A stretch of DNA of 64,000 bases from Frigoribacterium sp. Leaf263 (lineage in GTDB: Bacteria > Actinomycetota > Actinomycetes > Actinomycetales > Microbacteriaceae). The notes beneath the pieces were generated by a model. The model ran no database searches and was not told where the DNA came from. It was given only the letters and a program-made list of their open reading frames with translations. The position numbers and the translations under genes were made by a program. The DNA lies in assembly GCF_001422285.1 (NCBI RefSeq), contig NZ_LMMO01000003.1, positions 62,763 through 126,762 on the forward strand, in the 5' to 3' direction. Positions 7,426 through 15,276 of the stretch are shown here, piece by piece (within the stretch, counting starts at the first letter, position 1; every line of letters begins with the position of its first letter).

Positions 7426-9177
7426 TCAGGCGTCGACGTCGCGCAGCCAGACCGCCGCGTTGGGCGGCAGGGCGGGCCCGTCGAGCGTCATGGTCGACAG
7501 CAGCACCTCGCCGAGGGGCAGCTCGACGGCGACCTCGCCCAGGTTCGCGAGCACGGTGACCCCGGCGGTGCGGAACGCCACGACGTCTCGCGAGTACTCG
7601 TCGAGCCAGCCGATCTCCGCCGTGCCCAGGTCGAGCTCCGATCGCAGACGGAGAGCCAGCCGGTACAGCTCGAGCGTCGAGCCGGTCACGCCCACCTGCT
7701 CGTCCCGGGCGTACGTCGACCAGTCCGACGGCTGCGGCAGCCAGGAGGCGCCGGTCGAGTTGAACCCGAAGGCCGGCTCGCCGGAGGCCCAGGGCAGAGG
7801 CACACGGCACCCGTCCCGCCCGTAGCGTTCGCCCTTCGTGCGGAACCAGGTGGGATCCTGACGGCTGTCGTCGGGGAGATCGATGGCCTCGGGGAGTCCG
7901 AGCTCCTCGCCCTGATAGAGGTAGGCGCTGCCGGGGAGCGCGAGCATGACGGCCGTGGCCGCGCGGGCGCGGGCGAGACCGAGCTCGGGGATCGGGAGGC
8001 CGGCGCTGAGGGGGCCGATGCCGTGGCCCTGGGGGTTCTCGGCGGTGAGGGCGAGGCGGCTGGCGTGCCGGACGACGTCGTGGTTGCTCAGCACCCAGGT
8101 GCTGGGCGCCCCGACGCTCGAGAACACCTCGAGGGAGGAGTCGACGACCCGACGGATCTCGCCCGCCGACCAGCCCGTCTCGAGGTACGAGAAGTTGAAC
8201 GCCTGGTGCATCTCGTCGGGACGCACCCAGTCGGCCAGTCGCGACAGCGGTTCGACCCAGGCCTCGGCGACGAGCACGCGGTCGCCGGGGTACTCGTCGA
8301 GCACGGTGCGCCAGGTGCGGTAGATCTCGTGGACCCCGTCCTGGCCCCAGTAGGGCGGGGGAGCGGACTCGCCCTGGCCGCCGCCCATGCTGCCGGCGTC
8401 GGAGGGGGGCGTGTAGTCGGGCAGGCCCTCGGCCTTGATCATGCCGTGGGCGACGTCGACGCGGAACCCGTCGACCCCGCGGTCGAGCCAGAAGCGGAGC
8501 ACGTCGATGAACTGCTCGCGCACCCACGGGTCGGTCCAGTCGAGGTCGGGCTGCGACGAGTCGAAGAGGTGGAGGTACCACTGGCCGGGCGAGCCGTCGG
8601 CCTCGGTCACCCGAGTCCAGGCCGGGCCTCCGAAGATCGACTCCCAGTTGTTCGGCGGCAGCTCGCCGTCGTCCCCCCGGCCGTCGCGGAAGAGGTAGTG
8701 GCCGCGCTCGACCGAGCCGGGCTCCGCCGCCAGCGCCGCCTGGAACCAGGCGTGGTCCGACGAGGTGTGGTTGGGGACGACGTCGACGATGACCCTCAGC
8801 CCGAGGTCCGTCGCTCGCGCGCGCAGGGCGTCGAAGTCGTCGAGGCTGCCGAACAGCGGGTCGACGTCGCGGTAGTCGGCGACGTCGTAGCCGGCGTCGC
8901 GCTGCGGGGATCGGTAGAACGGCGACAGCCACACGGCGTCGACCCCCAGGTCGGCGAGATCGCCGAGCCGGGAGGTGATGCCGGGCAGATCGCCGATGCC
9001 GTCTCCGTCGGAGTCGGCGAACGAGCGGGGGTAGACCTGGTAGATGACGGCAGACCGCCACCACTCGCCGCCCCTCTCCGACGAGGGGCTCGGAGCCTCG
9101 TCGATGAGGGTGGTGGCGTCGGTCTCGGAGTCTGCGGGGGCGTCGAGCGTGTCGCCCGTGGGCTCTGATGAGGACAT
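7426..9177 (-). CDS. GH13 family alpha-glucosidase / oligo-1,6-glucosidase-like enzyme
   Basis: A 583-residue cytoplasmic glycoside hydrolase with no signal peptide. The catalytic (beta/alpha)8 barrel starts WWRSAVIYQVYPRSFADSDG. Catalytic residues are in place: nucleophile D241 in GFRVDVAHG, acid/base E305 in LVAEAWVE, and D367 in LSNHDVVRH; the first conserved region is DVVPNHTS. The order and the SDAGSMGG-containing insertion match actinobacterial alpha-glucosidases acting on maltose or isomaltose-type oligosaccharides; the linkage is not certain. A TATCGT -10 box ends 6 nt before the ATG, implying a leaderless transcript. No sugar transporter is adjacent, so it is probably a stand-alone housekeeping or storage-sugar gene. 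Confidence 0.9.
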   Translation of the reverse strand: MSSSEPTGDTLDAPADSETDATTLIDEAPSPSSERGGEWWRSAVIYQVYPRSFADSDGDGIGDLPGITSRLGDLADLGVDAVWLSPFYRSPQRDAGYDVADYRDVDPLFGSLDDFDALRARATDLGLRVIVDVVPNHTSSDHAWFQAALAAEPGSVERGHYLFRDGRGDDGELPPNNWESIFGGPAWTRVTEADGSPGQWYLHLFDSSQPDLDWTDPWVREQFIDVLRFWLDRGVDGFRVDVAHGMIKAEGLPDYTPPSDAGSMGGGQGESAPPPYWGQDGVHEIYRTWRTVLDEYPGDRVLVAEAWVEPLSRLADWVRPDEMHQAFNFSYLETGWSAGEIRRVVDSSLEVFSSVGAPSTWVLSNHDVVRHASRLALTAENPQGHGIGPLSAGLPIPELGLARARAATAVMLALPGSAYLYQGEELGLPEAIDLPDDSRQDPTWFRTKGERYGRDGCRVPLPWASGEPAFGFNSTGASWLPQPSDWSTYARDEQVGVTGSTLELYRLALRLRSELDLGTAEIGWLDEYSRDVVAFRTAGVTVLANLGEVAVELPLGEVLLSTMTLDGPALPPNAAVWLRDVDA

Positions 9178-9254
9178 GAGGCCACGATACGGCAGGGCGT
9201 CGGGCGGTCATCCGCTAGCGTGCAGTCACGACCCGACTGCGATTGGCCCCCACC

Positions 9255-10220
9255 GTGACCCCACCGAGCGTCCCCGCGACCGCCGACGATCCGACCGACG
9301 GGCCCGTCTTCCCCCTCGCCCTCGGCACCAACGTCTTCGGCTGGACGGTGGGTGCGCCCACCGCCTTCGAGGTGCTCGACGTCTTCGTCGGCGACGGCGG
9401 CCGCATCATCGACACCGCGGACGTCTACTCGGCCTGGCTGCCCGGCAACGTGGGCGGCGAGTCGGAGACGATCATCGGTCGGTGGATCGCCCGCCCGGGC
9501 AATCGCGAACGGGTGCTGCTGAGCACGAAGTGCGGTCAGCATCCCGACGCCCCGGGGCTCACCCGCACGAGCATCCGGACCGCCGTGGACGCGTCCCTGC
9601 GCCGGCTGCGCACCGACTACATCGACTACTACTTCACTCACTTCGACGACGACGAGACCCCGCTCGACGAGACGGTCGCGGCGCTCAGCGAACTGGTCGA
9701 CGAGGGCAAGATCCGATACCCCGCCGCGTCGAACTACACGGGCGCGAGACTCCGGCAGGCGCTCGCGATCGCCGATCGCGACGGTCTGCACCGCTTCGCC
9801 GCCGTCCAGGCCGCCTACAATCTCGTGCGCCGGACGGACTACGAGAACGACGTCCAGCCGATCGTCGACCACTTCGGTCTCGCCGTCCTGCCGCACTCGT
9901 CGCTCGCCAGCGGATTCCTCACCGGCAAGTACCGAGGCGACTCGGGTCGGGGCGACTCCCCACGCGGCAACCGCGCCCTCAGCTACGTGACCCCCAAGAA
10001 CCTCGGCATCGTCGAGGTGCTCGTCGAGATCGCCGACCGACAGCGCGTCGTGCCGGGTGCGGTCGCCATCGCCTGGCTGGCGACCCGTCAGAACGTGGTC
10101 GGCGCCCTCGCGAGCGCTCGGACGACGATCCAGCTCGAAGGGCTCCTCGAGTCGGCCGGCGTCGAGTTCTCCGAGCACGACCTCGCCGCCCTCGAGGCCG
10201 TGTCGGGGCCGCCCGCCTGA
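9255..10220 (+). CDS. Aldo/keto reductase
   Basis: A 321-residue NADPH-dependent oxidoreductase of the AKR superfamily with the (beta/alpha)8 fold. The catalytic tetrad is recognisable: Asp and Tyr in IIDTADVYSAW, Lys in LLSTKCG and His in YYFTHFD. The middle SNYTGARLRQAL and AAYNLVRR segments resemble the AKR11/12 (YhdN/Tas-like) branch. The substrate is unknown. GTG 9255 is used as start; TTG 9243 in frame is possible. The gene is divergent from the GH13 gene with a 77-bp spacer and convergent with the 2H phosphoesterase gene. The TGACCCGCGCCTCC repeat begins at its stop. Confidence 0.9.
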   Translation: MTPPSVPATADDPTDGPVFPLALGTNVFGWTVGAPTAFEVLDVFVGDGGRIIDTADVYSAWLPGNVGGESETIIGRWIARPGNRERVLLSTKCGQHPDAPGLTRTSIRTAVDASLRRLRTDYIDYYFTHFDDDETPLDETVAALSELVDEGKIRYPAASNYTGARLRQALAIADRDGLHRFAAVQAAYNLVRRTDYENDVQPIVDHFGLAVLPHSSLASGFLTGKYRGDSGRGDSPRGNRALSYVTPKNLGIVEVLVEIADRQRVVPGAVAIAWLATRQNVVGALASARTTIQLEGLLESAGVEFSEHDLAALEAVSGPPA

Positions 10221-10949: not shown

Positions 10950-11021
<72 letters not shown>

Positions 11022-11072
11022 CCGGCTGTCACGGTCCCGTCGCTCATCGATACGGCGGGGTTCACAGCCTGC

Positions 11073-11146
11073 GGCGGGGTAGCTCAGTTGGTTAGAGCAC
11101 ACGGCTCATAATCGTGGTGTCGCGGGTTCGAGTCCCGCCCTCGCTA
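11073..11146 (+). tRNA. tRNA-Met (CAT), elongator type
   Basis: A 74-nt tRNA with acceptor GGCGGGG pairing CCTCGCT (two G-U pairs) and discriminator A11146. The anticodon CAT is at 11107-11109 in loop CTCATAA. The anticodon stem CACGG/TCGTG lacks the three G-C pairs of initiator tRNA, so elongator Met is favoured; a tRNA-Ile2 with modified C34 is much less likely. CCA is not encoded. It lies 51 nt after tRNA-Thr. Confidence 0.93.
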
Positions 11147-11150
11147 CCGC

Positions 11151-11294: not shown

Positions 11295-12476
11295 ATGCCC
11301 GCCCCCGCCGATCCCGTCAGCATCCGCAGCATCGGCACCGCCGTTCCCGACACGGTCATCGGCCAGGAGCACATCCGAGACGTGTTCCGCACGCAGCCGG
11401 GGCTGAGCCGCCTCGCGACCCGCCTCGTCGGGTCCGTCTTCGACGCGGCCGCGATCGACACCCGCCACACGGTCATCGACGAGCTCGGCGCCGGCGGGTC
11501 GGAGGGCGGCGGCCTCGGGTCGGAACCCCTCGAGGCGCCCGTCTTCCTCGACTCCGAGACCGGCCGCATCCTCGATCCGAGCACCGGCACGCGCAACGAC
11601 GTCTACGTCGAGCGGAGCCCGGCCCTCTTCGAGGCGGCCGCACGTGACGCCCTCGATCGCGCCGAGGGGATCACGGCCGCCGACGTCACCCATGTCGTCA
11701 CCGTCTCGTGCACCGGCTTCTTCGCGCCCGGCCCCGACTACCTCCTCGTCCGCGCGCTCGGGCTGGCCGCCTCGACGCGCCGCCTCCACATCGGCTTCAT
11801 GGGCTGCTACGGCGCATTCCCCGCGATCCGATCGGCCCGCGACACGTGCCTGGCCGACCCGGACGCCGTGGTGCTCGTGGTCTGCGCCGAGCTCTGCACT
11901 CTGCATCTGCGGAGCTCGTCCGACCCCGACGCGATCGTGGCGTCCTCCGTCTTCGCCGACGGCGCGGCGGCCGCGATCATCACGGCTCGGCCCGCGCCCG
12001 AGGGCAGCCGGGTGCTCGACGTCGAGGCTCTCGAGACCGTGCTGACGCCGGTCGGCGAGGGCGACATGGCGTGGAGCATCGGCGACAGCGGCTTCGACAT
12101 GGTCCTCAGCAGCTACGTGCCCCACATCGTCGAGCAGCACGTCGACGAGGCCCTGGCGGCTCTGTGGACCGACGGGCTCAGGGCCGCCGACATCGACCTC
12201 TGGGCCGTCCACCCGGGCGGACGGAGCATCGTCGACCGCGTGCAGAACCGCCTCGGTCTCGCCGACCACCAGGTCGCCGCGTCGCGGAAGGTCCTGCGCG
12301 AGGCGGGCAACATGTCGAGCGCGACGGTGCTGTTCGTGATGCGCGAGGCCCTGACCGGCGAAGGAGGCGCGTGGTCGTCCACCGCGCCTCCTCGGCCTCA
12401 GCGGGTGGTCGCGATGGCCTTCGGGCCGGGACTCACCGTCGAGACGGGATCGTTCCGCAGCCGGATCGCCTCGTGA
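11295..12476 (+). CDS. Type III polyketide synthase
   Basis: A 393-residue thiolase-fold enzyme of the chalcone/stilbene synthase family. The catalytic triad is intact: C139 in VSCTGFFAPG, H306 in WAVHPGGRS and N339 in EAGNMSSATV. Bacterial members extend an acyl starter with malonyl-CoA and cyclise it to a resorcinol, pyrone or tetrahydroxynaphthalene. A TAGCAT box ends 5 nt before the ATG, indicating a leaderless start. It heads a three-gene operon with GTGA overlaps into a methyltransferase and an FAD hydroxylase, the gene content of the Streptomyces srsABC phenolic-lipid operon. The starter unit cannot be predicted. A GGAGGCGCG/CGCGCCTCC inverted pair lies in its 3' end (12363-12391). Confidence 0.93.
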   Translation: MPAPADPVSIRSIGTAVPDTVIGQEHIRDVFRTQPGLSRLATRLVGSVFDAAAIDTRHTVIDELGAGGSEGGGLGSEPLEAPVFLDSETGRILDPSTGTRNDVYVERSPALFEAAARDALDRAEGITAADVTHVVTVSCTGFFAPGPDYLLVRALGLAASTRRLHIGFMGCYGAFPAIRSARDTCLADPDAVVLVVCAELCTLHLRSSSDPDAIVASSVFADGAAAAIITARPAPEGSRVLDVEALETVLTPVGEGDMAWSIGDSGFDMVLSSYVPHIVEQHVDEALAALWTDGLRAADIDLWAVHPGGRSIVDRVQNRLGLADHQVAASRKVLREAGNMSSATVLFVMREALTGEGGAWSSTAPPRPQRVVAMAFGPGLTVETGSFRSRIAS

Positions 12477-13207
12477 GTCGAGCGCCCCGTGCGGCGCGGG
12501 TCGACCTCGACCGGCGCGACGCCGGTCTGGTCGAGCTGATGGACGATCCCGACTGCGACCTGCGGCTGCTCGAGAGGACGTACGGCCTGTTCCCGCTCGT
12601 GAACGCGCTCGTGGGCGGGTGGGGGGCGATCTACCGGGAGCTTCTCCGGCCGATGATGTCCGACGAGCGGCCGCTCCGGCTGCTCGATCTCGGTTCCGGG
12701 GGCGGTGACGTCGCACGCGGTCTGATGCGTCGCGCCCGGAAGGACGGTCTCCGTCTCGAGATCGTCGCCGCGGACCCGGACGCTCGCGCGCACGGCTGGG
12801 CCTCCGAGCACCCGCTGCCCGGCGTCGAGTACCGGTGCGTGTCGAGCGGGGATCTCGTGACGGCGGGCGAGCGCTTCGACGTCGTCGTCTCGAACCACGT
12901 CCTGCACCACCTCGACGACGAGGCGCGCGCATCCGTCCTGGACGACAGCGAGAGACTGGCGGAGCGCCTCGTCGTGCACGTCGACATCCGGCGGGCGCGC
13001 ACCGCTTACCTCGCGTACTGGATCGGGAGCCTCCCGCTCGCCGGGCGCTCGTTCGTCCGCGTCGACGGCCTGCGCTCGATCCGTCGCAGCTTCCGGCCCG
13101 ACGAGCTCCGAGCCGTCGTCCCGCCGCGGTGGCGCGTGGTCGCCCGCCGTCCGTTCCGGCTCTGGCTCGTGCACGCACCCGAGCGGGCCAGGGAGGAGGC
13201 GGCGTGA
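12473..13207 (+). CDS. SAM-dependent class I methyltransferase of the type III PKS operon
   Basis: A 244-residue cytoplasmic methyltransferase. SAM-binding motif I is LLDLGSGGGDVARGL, followed by an acidic motif II end (IVAADPD) and a motif near FDVVVSNHVLHHLDD. GTG 12473 overlaps the PKS stop as GTGA, and the stop overlaps the next gene in the same way, so it is translationally coupled on both sides. The N-terminal LMDDPDCDLRLLERTYGLF resembles methyltransferases next to actinobacterial type III PKS genes. Inferred role: O- or C-methylation of the polyketide phenol. It is soluble, with no membrane segments. Confidence 0.88.
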   Translation: MSRAPRAARVDLDRRDAGLVELMDDPDCDLRLLERTYGLFPLVNALVGGWGAIYRELLRPMMSDERPLRLLDLGSGGGDVARGLMRRARKDGLRLEIVAADPDARAHGWASEHPLPGVEYRCVSSGDLVTAGERFDVVVSNHVLHHLDDEARASVLDDSERLAERLVVHVDIRRARTAYLAYWIGSLPLAGRSFVRVDGLRSIRRSFRPDELRAVVPPRWRVVARRPFRLWLVHAPERAREEAA

Positions 13208-14361
13208 GGCGGATGCACGACGTCGCCGTGGTCGGCGGCGGCTCCGTCGGGGTCTTCGCCGCGCTGCTGCTCGCCCGGCAGGGACTCGACGTCGTCGTCT
13301 GGGAGCGCCGCGCCGCGCCTCCCGAGCAGTCGCGGGCCATCGGCATCCATCCGCCGTCGCTGCGGGCGTTCGACGCCGTCGACCTCGCCGACGACATCGT
13401 CGCGGGGGCCGTGCGGATCACGGACGCGGAGGCTCGCGGATCGGGCCGCACGCTGGGTCGCCTGAGCTTCGCCCGCGTCGACACGCGGTACCCGTTCGTG
13501 GCGGCGAGACCGCAGTCCGAGACGGAGCGGCTGCTCCGCGCCCGACTCGCGTCCGTCGCCCCCGACGCTCTGCGTCTCGGCGTCGAGGCCCTGTCGCTCG
13601 AGCAGACGGCCGAGCACGTCGTGCTGCGGGGGAGCGGACCGGACGGGCCGGCCGAGGTCGCGGCGCGGTTCGTCCTGGCCGCCGACGGTGCCCGCAGCAC
13701 CGTGCGGAGACTCGTCGGCATCTCGGCTCCGGCGTCGGAACGAGGCGATCACTACGCGATGGCCGACGTCCGCGACGACACCGGCGACGGCGAGAGGGCC
13801 GTCGTGTCGCTCGAGGGCGCCGGGGTGGTCGAGTCGTTCCCCCTCCCGGGCGGCGTCCGGAGATTCGTGGTCGCCACGCCCGTCCCGGCCGACGGAGCCT
13901 CGGTCGAGACCGTGGCGCGACTCGTCGCCGAGAGGACCGGACTGGCGCTCGACCCCTCCACCGGGACGATGAGCAGTTCGTTCACCGTGCGGACGCGACT
14001 CGCGACGTCGACCGTGGCCGGTCGTGTCGTCCTGATCGGCGATGCGGCTCATCAGATCAGCCCGATCGGCGGTCAGGGCATGAATCTCGGCTGGCTCGAC
14101 GCCGAGGCGGTCGCGCCGGTCATCGGCAGGGCTCTGCGCCGGGCGGGCGGGCGGCGTCTCGATCCGCAGCTGTTCGCCGGCTACGAGGAGGCGCGGCGAC
14201 GGTCCGCGCATCGTGCGGCCCGTCAGGCGCAGGTCAACACGGCCCTCGGCCGCCCGTGCGGTCCGGTCGCGCTCGCAGCCCGACGGACCGTGATCCGCCT
14301 GGGTCTCGGCCTCCCGACGTCGGGCCTGCTCGCAGCGACGTACGCGATGCGCTTCGTCTGA
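13204..14361 (+). CDS. FAD-dependent monooxygenase (aromatic hydroxylase family)
   Basis: A 385-residue class A flavoprotein monooxygenase. Family motifs are in order: the FAD Rossmann motif VAVVGGGSVGVFAALLLA near the N-terminus, the DG motif FVLAADGARSTVRRLVG, and the GD motif VVLIGDAAHQISPIGGQGMN. GTG 13204 overlaps the methyltransferase stop; ATG 13213 is an alternative three codons in. In this operon the expected job is hydroxylation or oxidative decarboxylation of the phenolic polyketide towards a quinone, as SrsC does in Streptomyces griseus. Convergent with the UbiA gene 27 bp downstream. Confidence 0.9.
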   Translation: MRRMHDVAVVGGGSVGVFAALLLARQGLDVVVWERRAAPPEQSRAIGIHPPSLRAFDAVDLADDIVAGAVRITDAEARGSGRTLGRLSFARVDTRYPFVAARPQSETERLLRARLASVAPDALRLGVEALSLEQTAEHVVLRGSGPDGPAEVAARFVLAADGARSTVRRLVGISAPASERGDHYAMADVRDDTGDGERAVVSLEGAGVVESFPLPGGVRRFVVATPVPADGASVETVARLVAERTGLALDPSTGTMSSSFTVRTRLATSTVAGRVVLIGDAAHQISPIGGQGMNLGWLDAEAVAPVIGRALRRAGGRRLDPQLFAGYEEARRRSAHRAARQAQVNTALGRPCGPVALAARRTVIRLGLGLPTSGLLAATYAMRFV

Positions 14362-14388
14362 TCGCACCGCCGGCCGTGACGGGCGCCG

Positions 14389-15276
14389 TCAGCGCGCGGT
14401 CAGGGCTGCTCCACCGACGGCGAGCTGCGCCACCAGGAGCAGCGCCGACGCCATGATCAGCCGGAACAGCAGCCGCGACGACCGGCCCTGCAGCACGGCG
14501 GCCGCGCCGATGCCGGCCAGGGCGACGACGACCGCGGCTCCGCCGAACGCGAGGGCGAGGTGCGGGCCGTCGATGTCCGCGGGGCTCGATGTGAGCTGAC
14601 CGACGAGGGCGAGCACGGCGGCCGACGCCAGCGCTCCGAACGCGACGAGACCGGCGCGGAGCCGGCCGAGTCGGTGAGGGAGCCCCACGATGCCCGTCCG
14701 AGCGTCGTCCGCCAGATCGGGCAGCACGTTGGTGAAGTGGATCGCCACCCCGAAGACGGCGCCGACGCCCAGCGCCCAGAGGGCCGGAGGGGCCGGGGGC
14801 GCGTCGGCGAGGGTCACGACGGCGGGGAGGATCCCGAAGCTGACGACGAACGGCACGACGGAGGCGGGCGTGCCCTTCAACCCCGCGTTGTACGCCAGAC
14901 CCGAGGCCAGCAGGACGGCATGAGCGATCCCGGTGCCGGGCCCCAGGGCGAAGGGCAGTCCGAACCCGATCAGCGCGCACGCCACGGCCACGATGAGGAT
15001 CGTGCGTGCAGCGATCACGCCCTGAGCGATCGGCTTGTCGCGGCGACCGACCCGGCGGTCGCGTTCGGCGTCGATCACGTCGTTCGAGAGACCGATCGCC
15101 AGTTGACCGGCGAGGACGCCGACGGCGACGACGGCCAGGCGGTCCGCCGGGAGTCCGATGGCGAGGCCGAGCACGACGGTCAGGACGGTGACCGTGAGCG
15201 TGGGACCGGGGTGCGACGACCGCAGCACCGCGGCGACCACCCGCAGAGCGGAGCCGGGCGACGCACGAGTGCTCAC
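14389..15276 (-). CDS. UbiA-family prenyltransferase
   Basis: A 295-residue integral membrane protein with about eight to nine predicted helices. The first Asp-rich motif N65-D-x-x-D69-x-x-x-D73 (NDVIDAERDRR) and a second, DLADDARTGI, bind the Mg2+-diphosphate of an isoprenyl donor. UbiA enzymes prenylate aromatic acceptors or act in related polyprenyl chemistry. It faces the type III PKS operon tail to tail, so it plausibly prenylates that product at the membrane, with donor from the polyprenyl synthase pool. GTG 15276 is the chosen start; the upstream 220 bp contains a strong hairpin. It could instead belong to an unrelated quinone or carotenoid pathway. Confidence 0.85.
   Translation of the reverse strand: MSTRASPGSALRVVAAVLRSSHPGPTLTVTVLTVVLGLAIGLPADRLAVVAVGVLAGQLAIGLSNDVIDAERDRRVGRRDKPIAQGVIAARTILIVAVACALIGFGLPFALGPGTGIAHAVLLASGLAYNAGLKGTPASVVPFVVSFGILPAVVTLADAPPAPPALWALGVGAVFGVAIHFTNVLPDLADDARTGIVGLPHRLGRLRAGLVAFGALASAAVLALVGQLTSSPADIDGPHLALAFGGAAVVVALAGIGAAAVLQGRSSRLLFRLIMASALLLVAQLAVGGAALTAR

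Follow-up and report, generated by a model that had tools for sequence, protein, structure and literature searches.

Does a UbiA-family prenyltransferase gene that lies tail to tail with a three-gene type III polyketide synthase (PKS) operon act in the same pathway as that operon, or is it only a neighbor? The question arises in a 64,000-nucleotide stretch of the Frigoribacterium sp. Leaf263 genome (Microbacteriaceae; contig NZ_LMMO01000003.1, positions 62,763 to 126,762), hereafter the window, in which the operon encodes the PKS, an S-adenosylmethionine (SAM) methyltransferase (MT), and a flavin adenine dinucleotide (FAD) hydroxylase. The four genes are intact and belong to assignable families, the UbiA gene is co-conserved with type III PKS genes, and the UbiA protein groups with the probable AgqD of the agq cluster. 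We consider it likely that the four genes act together in a single pathway whose end product is a phenolic lipid carrying a prenyl group, with prenylated alkyl-methoxyhydroquinones as the predicted product. An earlier note on this DNA had linked UbiA to the operon from position only, and that link is now backed by co-occurrence and by several arrangements in several families.

We scored UbiA orthologs and PKS types in a family set of 160 genomes from 85 genera and in an order set of 198 genomes, which share some genomes. PKS genes of the family set were assigned by E-value and identity (cut-off E 1e-20) to clade A, the window type, or clade B, the type of the Streptomyces griseus srs operon. 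The UbiA ortholog was present in 57 of 60 clade-B-only genomes, 24 of 55 clade-A-only genomes, and 3 of 44 PKS-less genomes; the last count excludes two weak matches (G148 and G027; 5 of 44 if counted), and two of its three carriers are incomplete drafts (G136, 66%; G182, 87%). At least one sampled genome carried UbiA in all 36 clade B genera and in 13 of 29 clade A genera, and the gene lay within 6 kb of the PKS gene in 19 of the 24 clade A genomes that have it. In the order set, where every PKS not of the window type was labeled B, some of these (G210, G303) later being found agq-like, and where G053 was added by hand, UbiA occurred in 45 of 60 genomes with a non-A PKS, 9 of 37 with a clade A PKS, and 1 of 100 with none. 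Fifty-five genomes besides that of the window carried it, and 35 of these 55 UbiA genes, spanning 9 families and 21 genera, were within 6 kb of a type III PKS gene: 24 were divergent from and 3 codirectional with a non-A PKS gene, and 8 were convergent with clade A. Proximity by chance was rejected with a binomial probability of 5e-67 (p 0.005 for lying within 6 kb; 35 of 54 entered, the count being 35 of 55), a figure that serves as a yardstick only, the genomes being related. The neighborhood comparison proposed in the earlier note gave a clearly positive result for type III PKS genes generally and a divided one for the window-type operon, and our counts support the conclusion that UbiA and type III PKS genes go together. 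The association is partial in clade A, where under half of the genomes have UbiA, yet still far above the PKS-less background, and UbiA is a widespread, optional partner.

The link weakened farther out, with window-type UbiA in 35 of 346 genomes of a phylum set and a type III PKS gene near UbiA in 4 of 9 wide loci outside the order (L154–L162; the loci for wide views were hand-picked). In the family that contains Actinoplanes (f23, that of G565), 191 of 200 genomes carry an AgqD-type UbiA, and all nine wide UbiA loci taken from it (L154, L284, and L286–L292) have a type III PKS gene nearby. This near-universal presence resembles that of a core lipid gene more than that of a sporadic cluster.

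Its PF01040 match (83.4 bits, cut-off 34.2) and two Asp-rich motifs assign the window enzyme to the UbiA prenyltransferase superfamily. Both motifs are kept (NDVIDAERD from residue 65 and DLADD from residue 187), and N65, D66, D69, D73, D187, and D191 were invariant in alignments of 14 and 7 UbiA sequences. The protein reached no NCBIfam cut-off (best 42.6 bits against a cut-off of 269). Elsewhere in the same genome, NCBIfam models identified MenA (346.7 bits, cut-off 264), heme O synthase (451.7 bits, cut-off 246), and a PRK13105 enzyme (449.4 bits, cut-off 217); as the genome has its own copy of each, we ruled out all three roles, the carotenoid one included, for the window UbiA. In trees built from fetched loci only, after dropping UbiA sequences below 240 residues, PKS sequences below 300 residues, and duplicate UbiAs, the window UbiA and the UbiA of locus L284 fell in one 161-leaf clade (local support 0.97) that takes in UbiAs beside PKS of clade A, clade B, and the agq type and leaves MenA, CtaB, and carotenoid-type enzymes outside. 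These two UbiAs are 46% identical over 263 residues in pairwise comparison and 39% identical in the multiple alignment.

The agq cluster of Actinoplanes missouriensis, reportedly described by Awakawa et al. in 2011, is said to make alkyl-O-dihydrogeranyl-methoxyhydroquinones. Locus L284 (genome G843) combines a UbiA gene with genes for a type III PKS, a class I MT resembling UbiG, and a flavoenzyme resembling acyl-CoA dehydrogenases. Because this PKS is the sole PF02797 match in its genome, it is very probably AgqA; with the gene content of the locus, this makes L284 the probable agq locus, and we infer which of its genes are agqB and agqC. According to passages of PMC10896814 (2024), AgqA makes alkylresorcinols that are afterwards prenylated and hydroxylated, and the function of these lipids is called enigmatic; a passage of PMC7692728 gives agqB to agqD as the remaining genes of the cluster.

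The named loci are the best 80 of at least 569 confirmed ones, ten of them under 10 kb. Among these 80, we found 31 with PKS, MT, and FAD genes beside UbiA, 20 with the FAD gene only, and 29 without the tested partners; the 31 include loci from Clavibacter, Okibacterium, Labedella, Leifsonia, Microbacterium, Nesterenkonia, Flavimobilis, Plantibacter, and a Cellulomonadaceae record. UbiA is convergent after PKS-MT-FAD in the window, Clavibacter, Okibacterium, Labedella, Microbacterium, Nesterenkonia, and Flavimobilis, and divergent, upstream of the PKS gene, in Plantibacter, L261, and L274. Three genomes (G082, G069, and G152) have a convergent pair of FAD and UbiA genes (L079, L081, and L082) away from their PKS-MT genes (L098, L100, and L101). 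In L073, UbiA (8465–9289) is the fourth gene of a run in which the MT is an isoprenylcysteine carboxyl methyltransferase (ICMT), PKS-ICMT-FAD-UbiA; L074 is similar, the ICMT being shown by Pfam for L073 only. UbiA is divergent from an srs-type PKS gene with ICMT in L059, L166, and L169. On the side, UbiA lies on the same strand and downstream of an srs-type PKS run in L073, L074, and L108, and 17 Curtobacterium and 3 Rathayibacter loci of the best 80 have the FAD gene near UbiA and no PKS gene in the flank, the rest of these genomes not having been searched for PKS. One record titled Planococcus (L250, JASDDH010000042.1) carries an actinobacterial PKS-MT-FAD-UbiA cluster and is probably a mislabeled or contaminated assembly.

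The four reading frames of the window, the two GTGA overlaps (12473–12476 between PKS and MT, 13204–13207 between MT and FAD), and the tail-to-tail UbiA gene 27 base pairs (bp) away were all found as the earlier note had described them (Table 1). Translation revealed no internal stops in any of the four, and Pfam matches above cut-off were Chal_sti_synt_N and Chal_sti_synt_C, class I methyltransferase domains, FAD_binding_3, and UbiA; the MT scored 292.3 bits against NCBIfam PRK06202 (cut-off 243). The same note had given C139/H306/N339 as the catalytic residues of the PKS. H306 and N339 stand, and the nucleophile is instead C171, which lies in GFMGC and lines up with the Cys of the GCFG/GCFA stretch in type III PKSs of solved structure, C139 falling in an upstream SCTGF stretch. 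A scan for promoters and terminators at the cluster found nothing, and the Rfam matches in the window are four tRNAs only, of which tRNA-Thr and tRNA-Met (10950–11148) immediately precede the PKS gene.

Table 1. Features of the PKS–UbiA locus, in window coordinates.
Feature	Position	Strand	Remarks
Type III PKS, 393 aa	11295..12476	+	C171/H306/N339 catalytic; clade A
Class I SAM MT, 244 aa	12473..13207	+	NCBIfam PRK06202; GTGA overlap with PKS stop
FAD hydroxylase, 385 aa	13204..14361	+	FAD_binding_3; GTGA overlap with MT stop
Gap between convergent stop codons, 27 bp	14362..14388	.	No terminator-like pattern
UbiA-family prenyltransferase, AgqD-type, 295 aa	14389..15276	-	NDxxDxxxD from residue 65, DxxxD from residue 187

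The earlier note had also equated the gene content of the operon with that of srsABC, which holds by function and fails by family. Judged by protein families and trees, Microbacteriaceae have two type III PKS clades: A, that of the window, with a class I MT, and B, the srs clade, with ICMT in the loci scanned. Pfam gave ICMT (PF04140) matches in the srs-type loci L107, L073, and L059 and none in the window MT. In L107, the srs locus of Marisediminicola antarctica, the ICMT gene sits between the PKS and FAD genes, and a passage of PMC6669644 names SrsB of this species as an isoprenylcysteine carboxyl methyltransferase. We therefore dismissed an srsABC identity for the window operon, as its MT is not SrsB-like and its PKS falls in a separate clade; the FAD_binding_3 hydroxylase is 33.8% identical to the L107 enzyme over 320 residues. 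In a PKS tree rooted on B, clade A has 93 leaves (support 0.63) and clade C, the agq type, has 12 (support 0.997). Clades A and B occurred together in 1 of 116 PKS-bearing genomes at the E 1e-20 cut-off, compared to ~21 expected if they were independent and with relatedness uncorrected; this sole genome, G110, has no UbiA match.

We infer the catalytic steps of the window pathway, their order, the prenyl donor, and the choice between O- and C-prenylation. The PKS would use a long-chain acyl-CoA and malonyl-type units to form a cyclized alkylresorcinol, which the MT would methylate, most likely on one phenol oxygen. Hydroxylation of the ring by the FAD enzyme would then give an alkyl-methoxyhydroquinone, or a quinone after oxidation, and the membrane-bound UbiA would add a short isoprenyl chain, for which oxygen, the site reported for Actinoplanes, is the likeliest point of attachment. 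Such O-prenylation, if true, would yield a capped hydroquinone lipid.

Several findings weigh against this four-gene pathway. A window-type PKS without UbiA occurs in 31 of 55 clade-A-only genomes of the family set and in 28 of 37 clade A genomes of the order set; UbiA is thus missing from most window-type operons, and the three-gene operon therefore works alone elsewhere. Five of the 24 UbiA-bearing clade A genomes have the gene beyond 6 kb from the PKS gene; it is 710 kb distant in G108, and three more of the five are G069, G082, and G152, the genomes with the separate FAD and UbiA pair, in which the PKS gene retains the MT gene only. In many clade B genomes UbiA stands alone, far from the PKS gene. 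Stand-alone UbiA is convergent with a homologous transporter gene of the major facilitator superfamily (MFS) in 11 of 20 opened loci (L065–L072, L076, L078, and L083; the MFS_1 Pfam match was checked for L078 only, and the transporter is DHA2-like by inspection), and this transporter is a possible exporter for the product. No recognizable type III PKS gene was found near UbiA in five of the nine wide loci outside the order. When rooted, the UbiA set is not fully monophyletic, with 10 of 171 sequences outside the 161-leaf clade, and by the same pairwise measure the genome's MenA is 35.5% identical to the window UbiA over 231 residues; identity alone is therefore weak evidence for the class of UbiA, and the grouping leans on the tree. 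Within a genus the whole block is syntenic and its conserved order says little, so we set such synteny aside as uninformative about linkage and used other genera, families, and the order instead. The passages of the literature consulted did not include a type III PKS product measured in any member of this family. The UbiA-less operons would suit a product that is never prenylated, in which PKS, MT, and FAD enzyme make an alkyl-methoxybenzoquinone that serves as an alternative electron carrier like the polyketide quinones of Mycobacterium smegmatis and Streptomyces MNU77, with UbiA a mere neighbor acting on another substrate; passages of PMC9927152 describe the same order of functions in the three-gene polyketide quinone operon. 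We regard this explanation as unlikely, however, as UbiA tracks type III PKS genes across genomes in several arrangements, the FAD and UbiA genes are still paired in three genomes though PKS-MT is elsewhere, and the M. smegmatis operon is described, in the passages available, as srs-homologous, whereas the window MT is not an ICMT.

UbiA and MenA C-prenylate, and the quinol would come from the FAD hydroxylase, which makes room for a window enzyme that prenylates the aromatic ring on carbon. The result would be a prenylated alkylquinone with quinol/quinone cycling, a hybrid of polyketide and isoprenoid quinones and, if true, a possible redox quinone akin to the polyketide quinones in passages of PMC9927152. 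AuaA C-prenylates, according to a passage of PMC4044012, but the nearest enzyme with reported chemistry, the agq-cluster prenyltransferase, is given there as O-prenylating a small polyketide, in keeping with the compound name, and we hold C-prenylation in the window to be quite unlikely. The product of a type III PKS is not readable from sequence alone, and the best solved-structure matches of the window PKS are plant enzymes with varied products, so a pyrone might be the PKS product, or an aromatic that is not a lipid, with a different meroterpenoid coming from the cluster. This appears very unlikely to us, as the window PKS is nearer the probable AgqA (41.8%) than the SrsA-type reference (33.6%), a passage of PMC10896814 lists AgqA as well as SrsA among resorcinol synthases, and an MT and a hydroxylase suit a resorcinol route.

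A broader reading, which we put forward tentatively and consider rather unlikely, is that several type III PKS modules can replace one another across Actinobacteria, with the AgqD-type UbiA as their regular partner, and that UbiA and module jointly make a prenylated phenolic lipid or quinone with a physiological role, perhaps as a redox carrier, instead of an antibiotic found here and there. The presence of UbiA in 191 of 200 f23 genomes would agree with this, as would the way in which PKS modules A and B exclude each other in Microbacteriaceae. On the same doubtful footing, the window would be the module with a PRK06202-type MT. For the four-gene pathway itself, since the UbiA partner occurs widely and goes with type III PKS genes, the question of lipid function could be approached in small-genome actinobacteria such as Frigoribacterium. 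As an annotation rule, we suggest that a UbiA of this clade together with a type III PKS in a genome hints at a prenylated product, even if the two genes lie apart.

Searches of the literature, mainly of titles, abstract openings, and passages, did not bring up any type III PKS of Microbacteriaceae whose product is reported to be prenylated. Passages of the R. toxicus genome paper describe a type III PKS region and, separately, a carotenoid UbiA gene, and those of the Marisediminicola and Herbiconiux papers give antiSMASH-type alkylresorcinol predictions with no prenyl step. The earlier note had thought a prenylated alkyl-resorcinol or quinone from a Microbacteriaceae-like host new; the chemotype has been reported before, as the agq product of Actinoplanes missouriensis. 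What is new is the combination of enzymes and the host family, the class of chemistry being known.

Among known systems likened to the window by description, the hidABC hierridin clusters of cyanobacteria combine a PKS with a methyltransferase and an oxidoreductase, but passages of PMC8086630 give their usual order as MT-oxidoreductase-PKS and report a prenyltransferase in 1 of 47 clusters. The pkqABC polyketide quinone operon of M. smegmatis and Streptomyces MNU77 has the same order of PKS, methyltransferase, and oxidoreductase genes as the window, with no UbiA described in the passages of PMC9927152. The loseolamycin locus of Micromonospora endolithica has UbiA, methyltransferase, and acyl-CoA dehydrogenase genes beside its type III PKS gene, the dehydrogenase standing where the window has FAD_binding_3 (passages of PMC7587189). 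Insertion of a promoter solely before losA gave unprenylated alkylresorcinols with the UbiA gene on the clone, according to the same source, and because the promoter was placed there this result is no clear evidence against UbiA. The srsABC operon of Streptomyces griseus, in its Marisediminicola antarctica form, shares with the window the order of PKS, MT, and FAD_binding_3 hydroxylase, but its PKS, 33.6% identical to that of the window, falls in another clade, its MT is an ICMT (PF04140) rather than a class I enzyme, and it is described without UbiA in passages of PMC6669644. The agq locus has the same functions as the window, namely a type III PKS, a SAM methyltransferase of class I, a flavin enzyme, and UbiA, and the window UbiA lies in the clade of the probable AgqD. 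The two PKSs are 41.8% identical over 335 residues yet fall in separate clades; the agq MT is UbiG-like (below cut-off) and matches the window PRK06202 enzyme locally over 68 residues only; the agq flavoenzyme has acyl-CoA dehydrogenase domains in place of FAD_binding_3; and UbiA is divergent from the MT gene there and convergent with the hydroxylase gene in the window. From its sequence, the window appears to arrive at an agq-like function with a PKS of clade A, a methyltransferase that is not of the SrsB type, and a hydroxylase of the FAD_binding_3 family.

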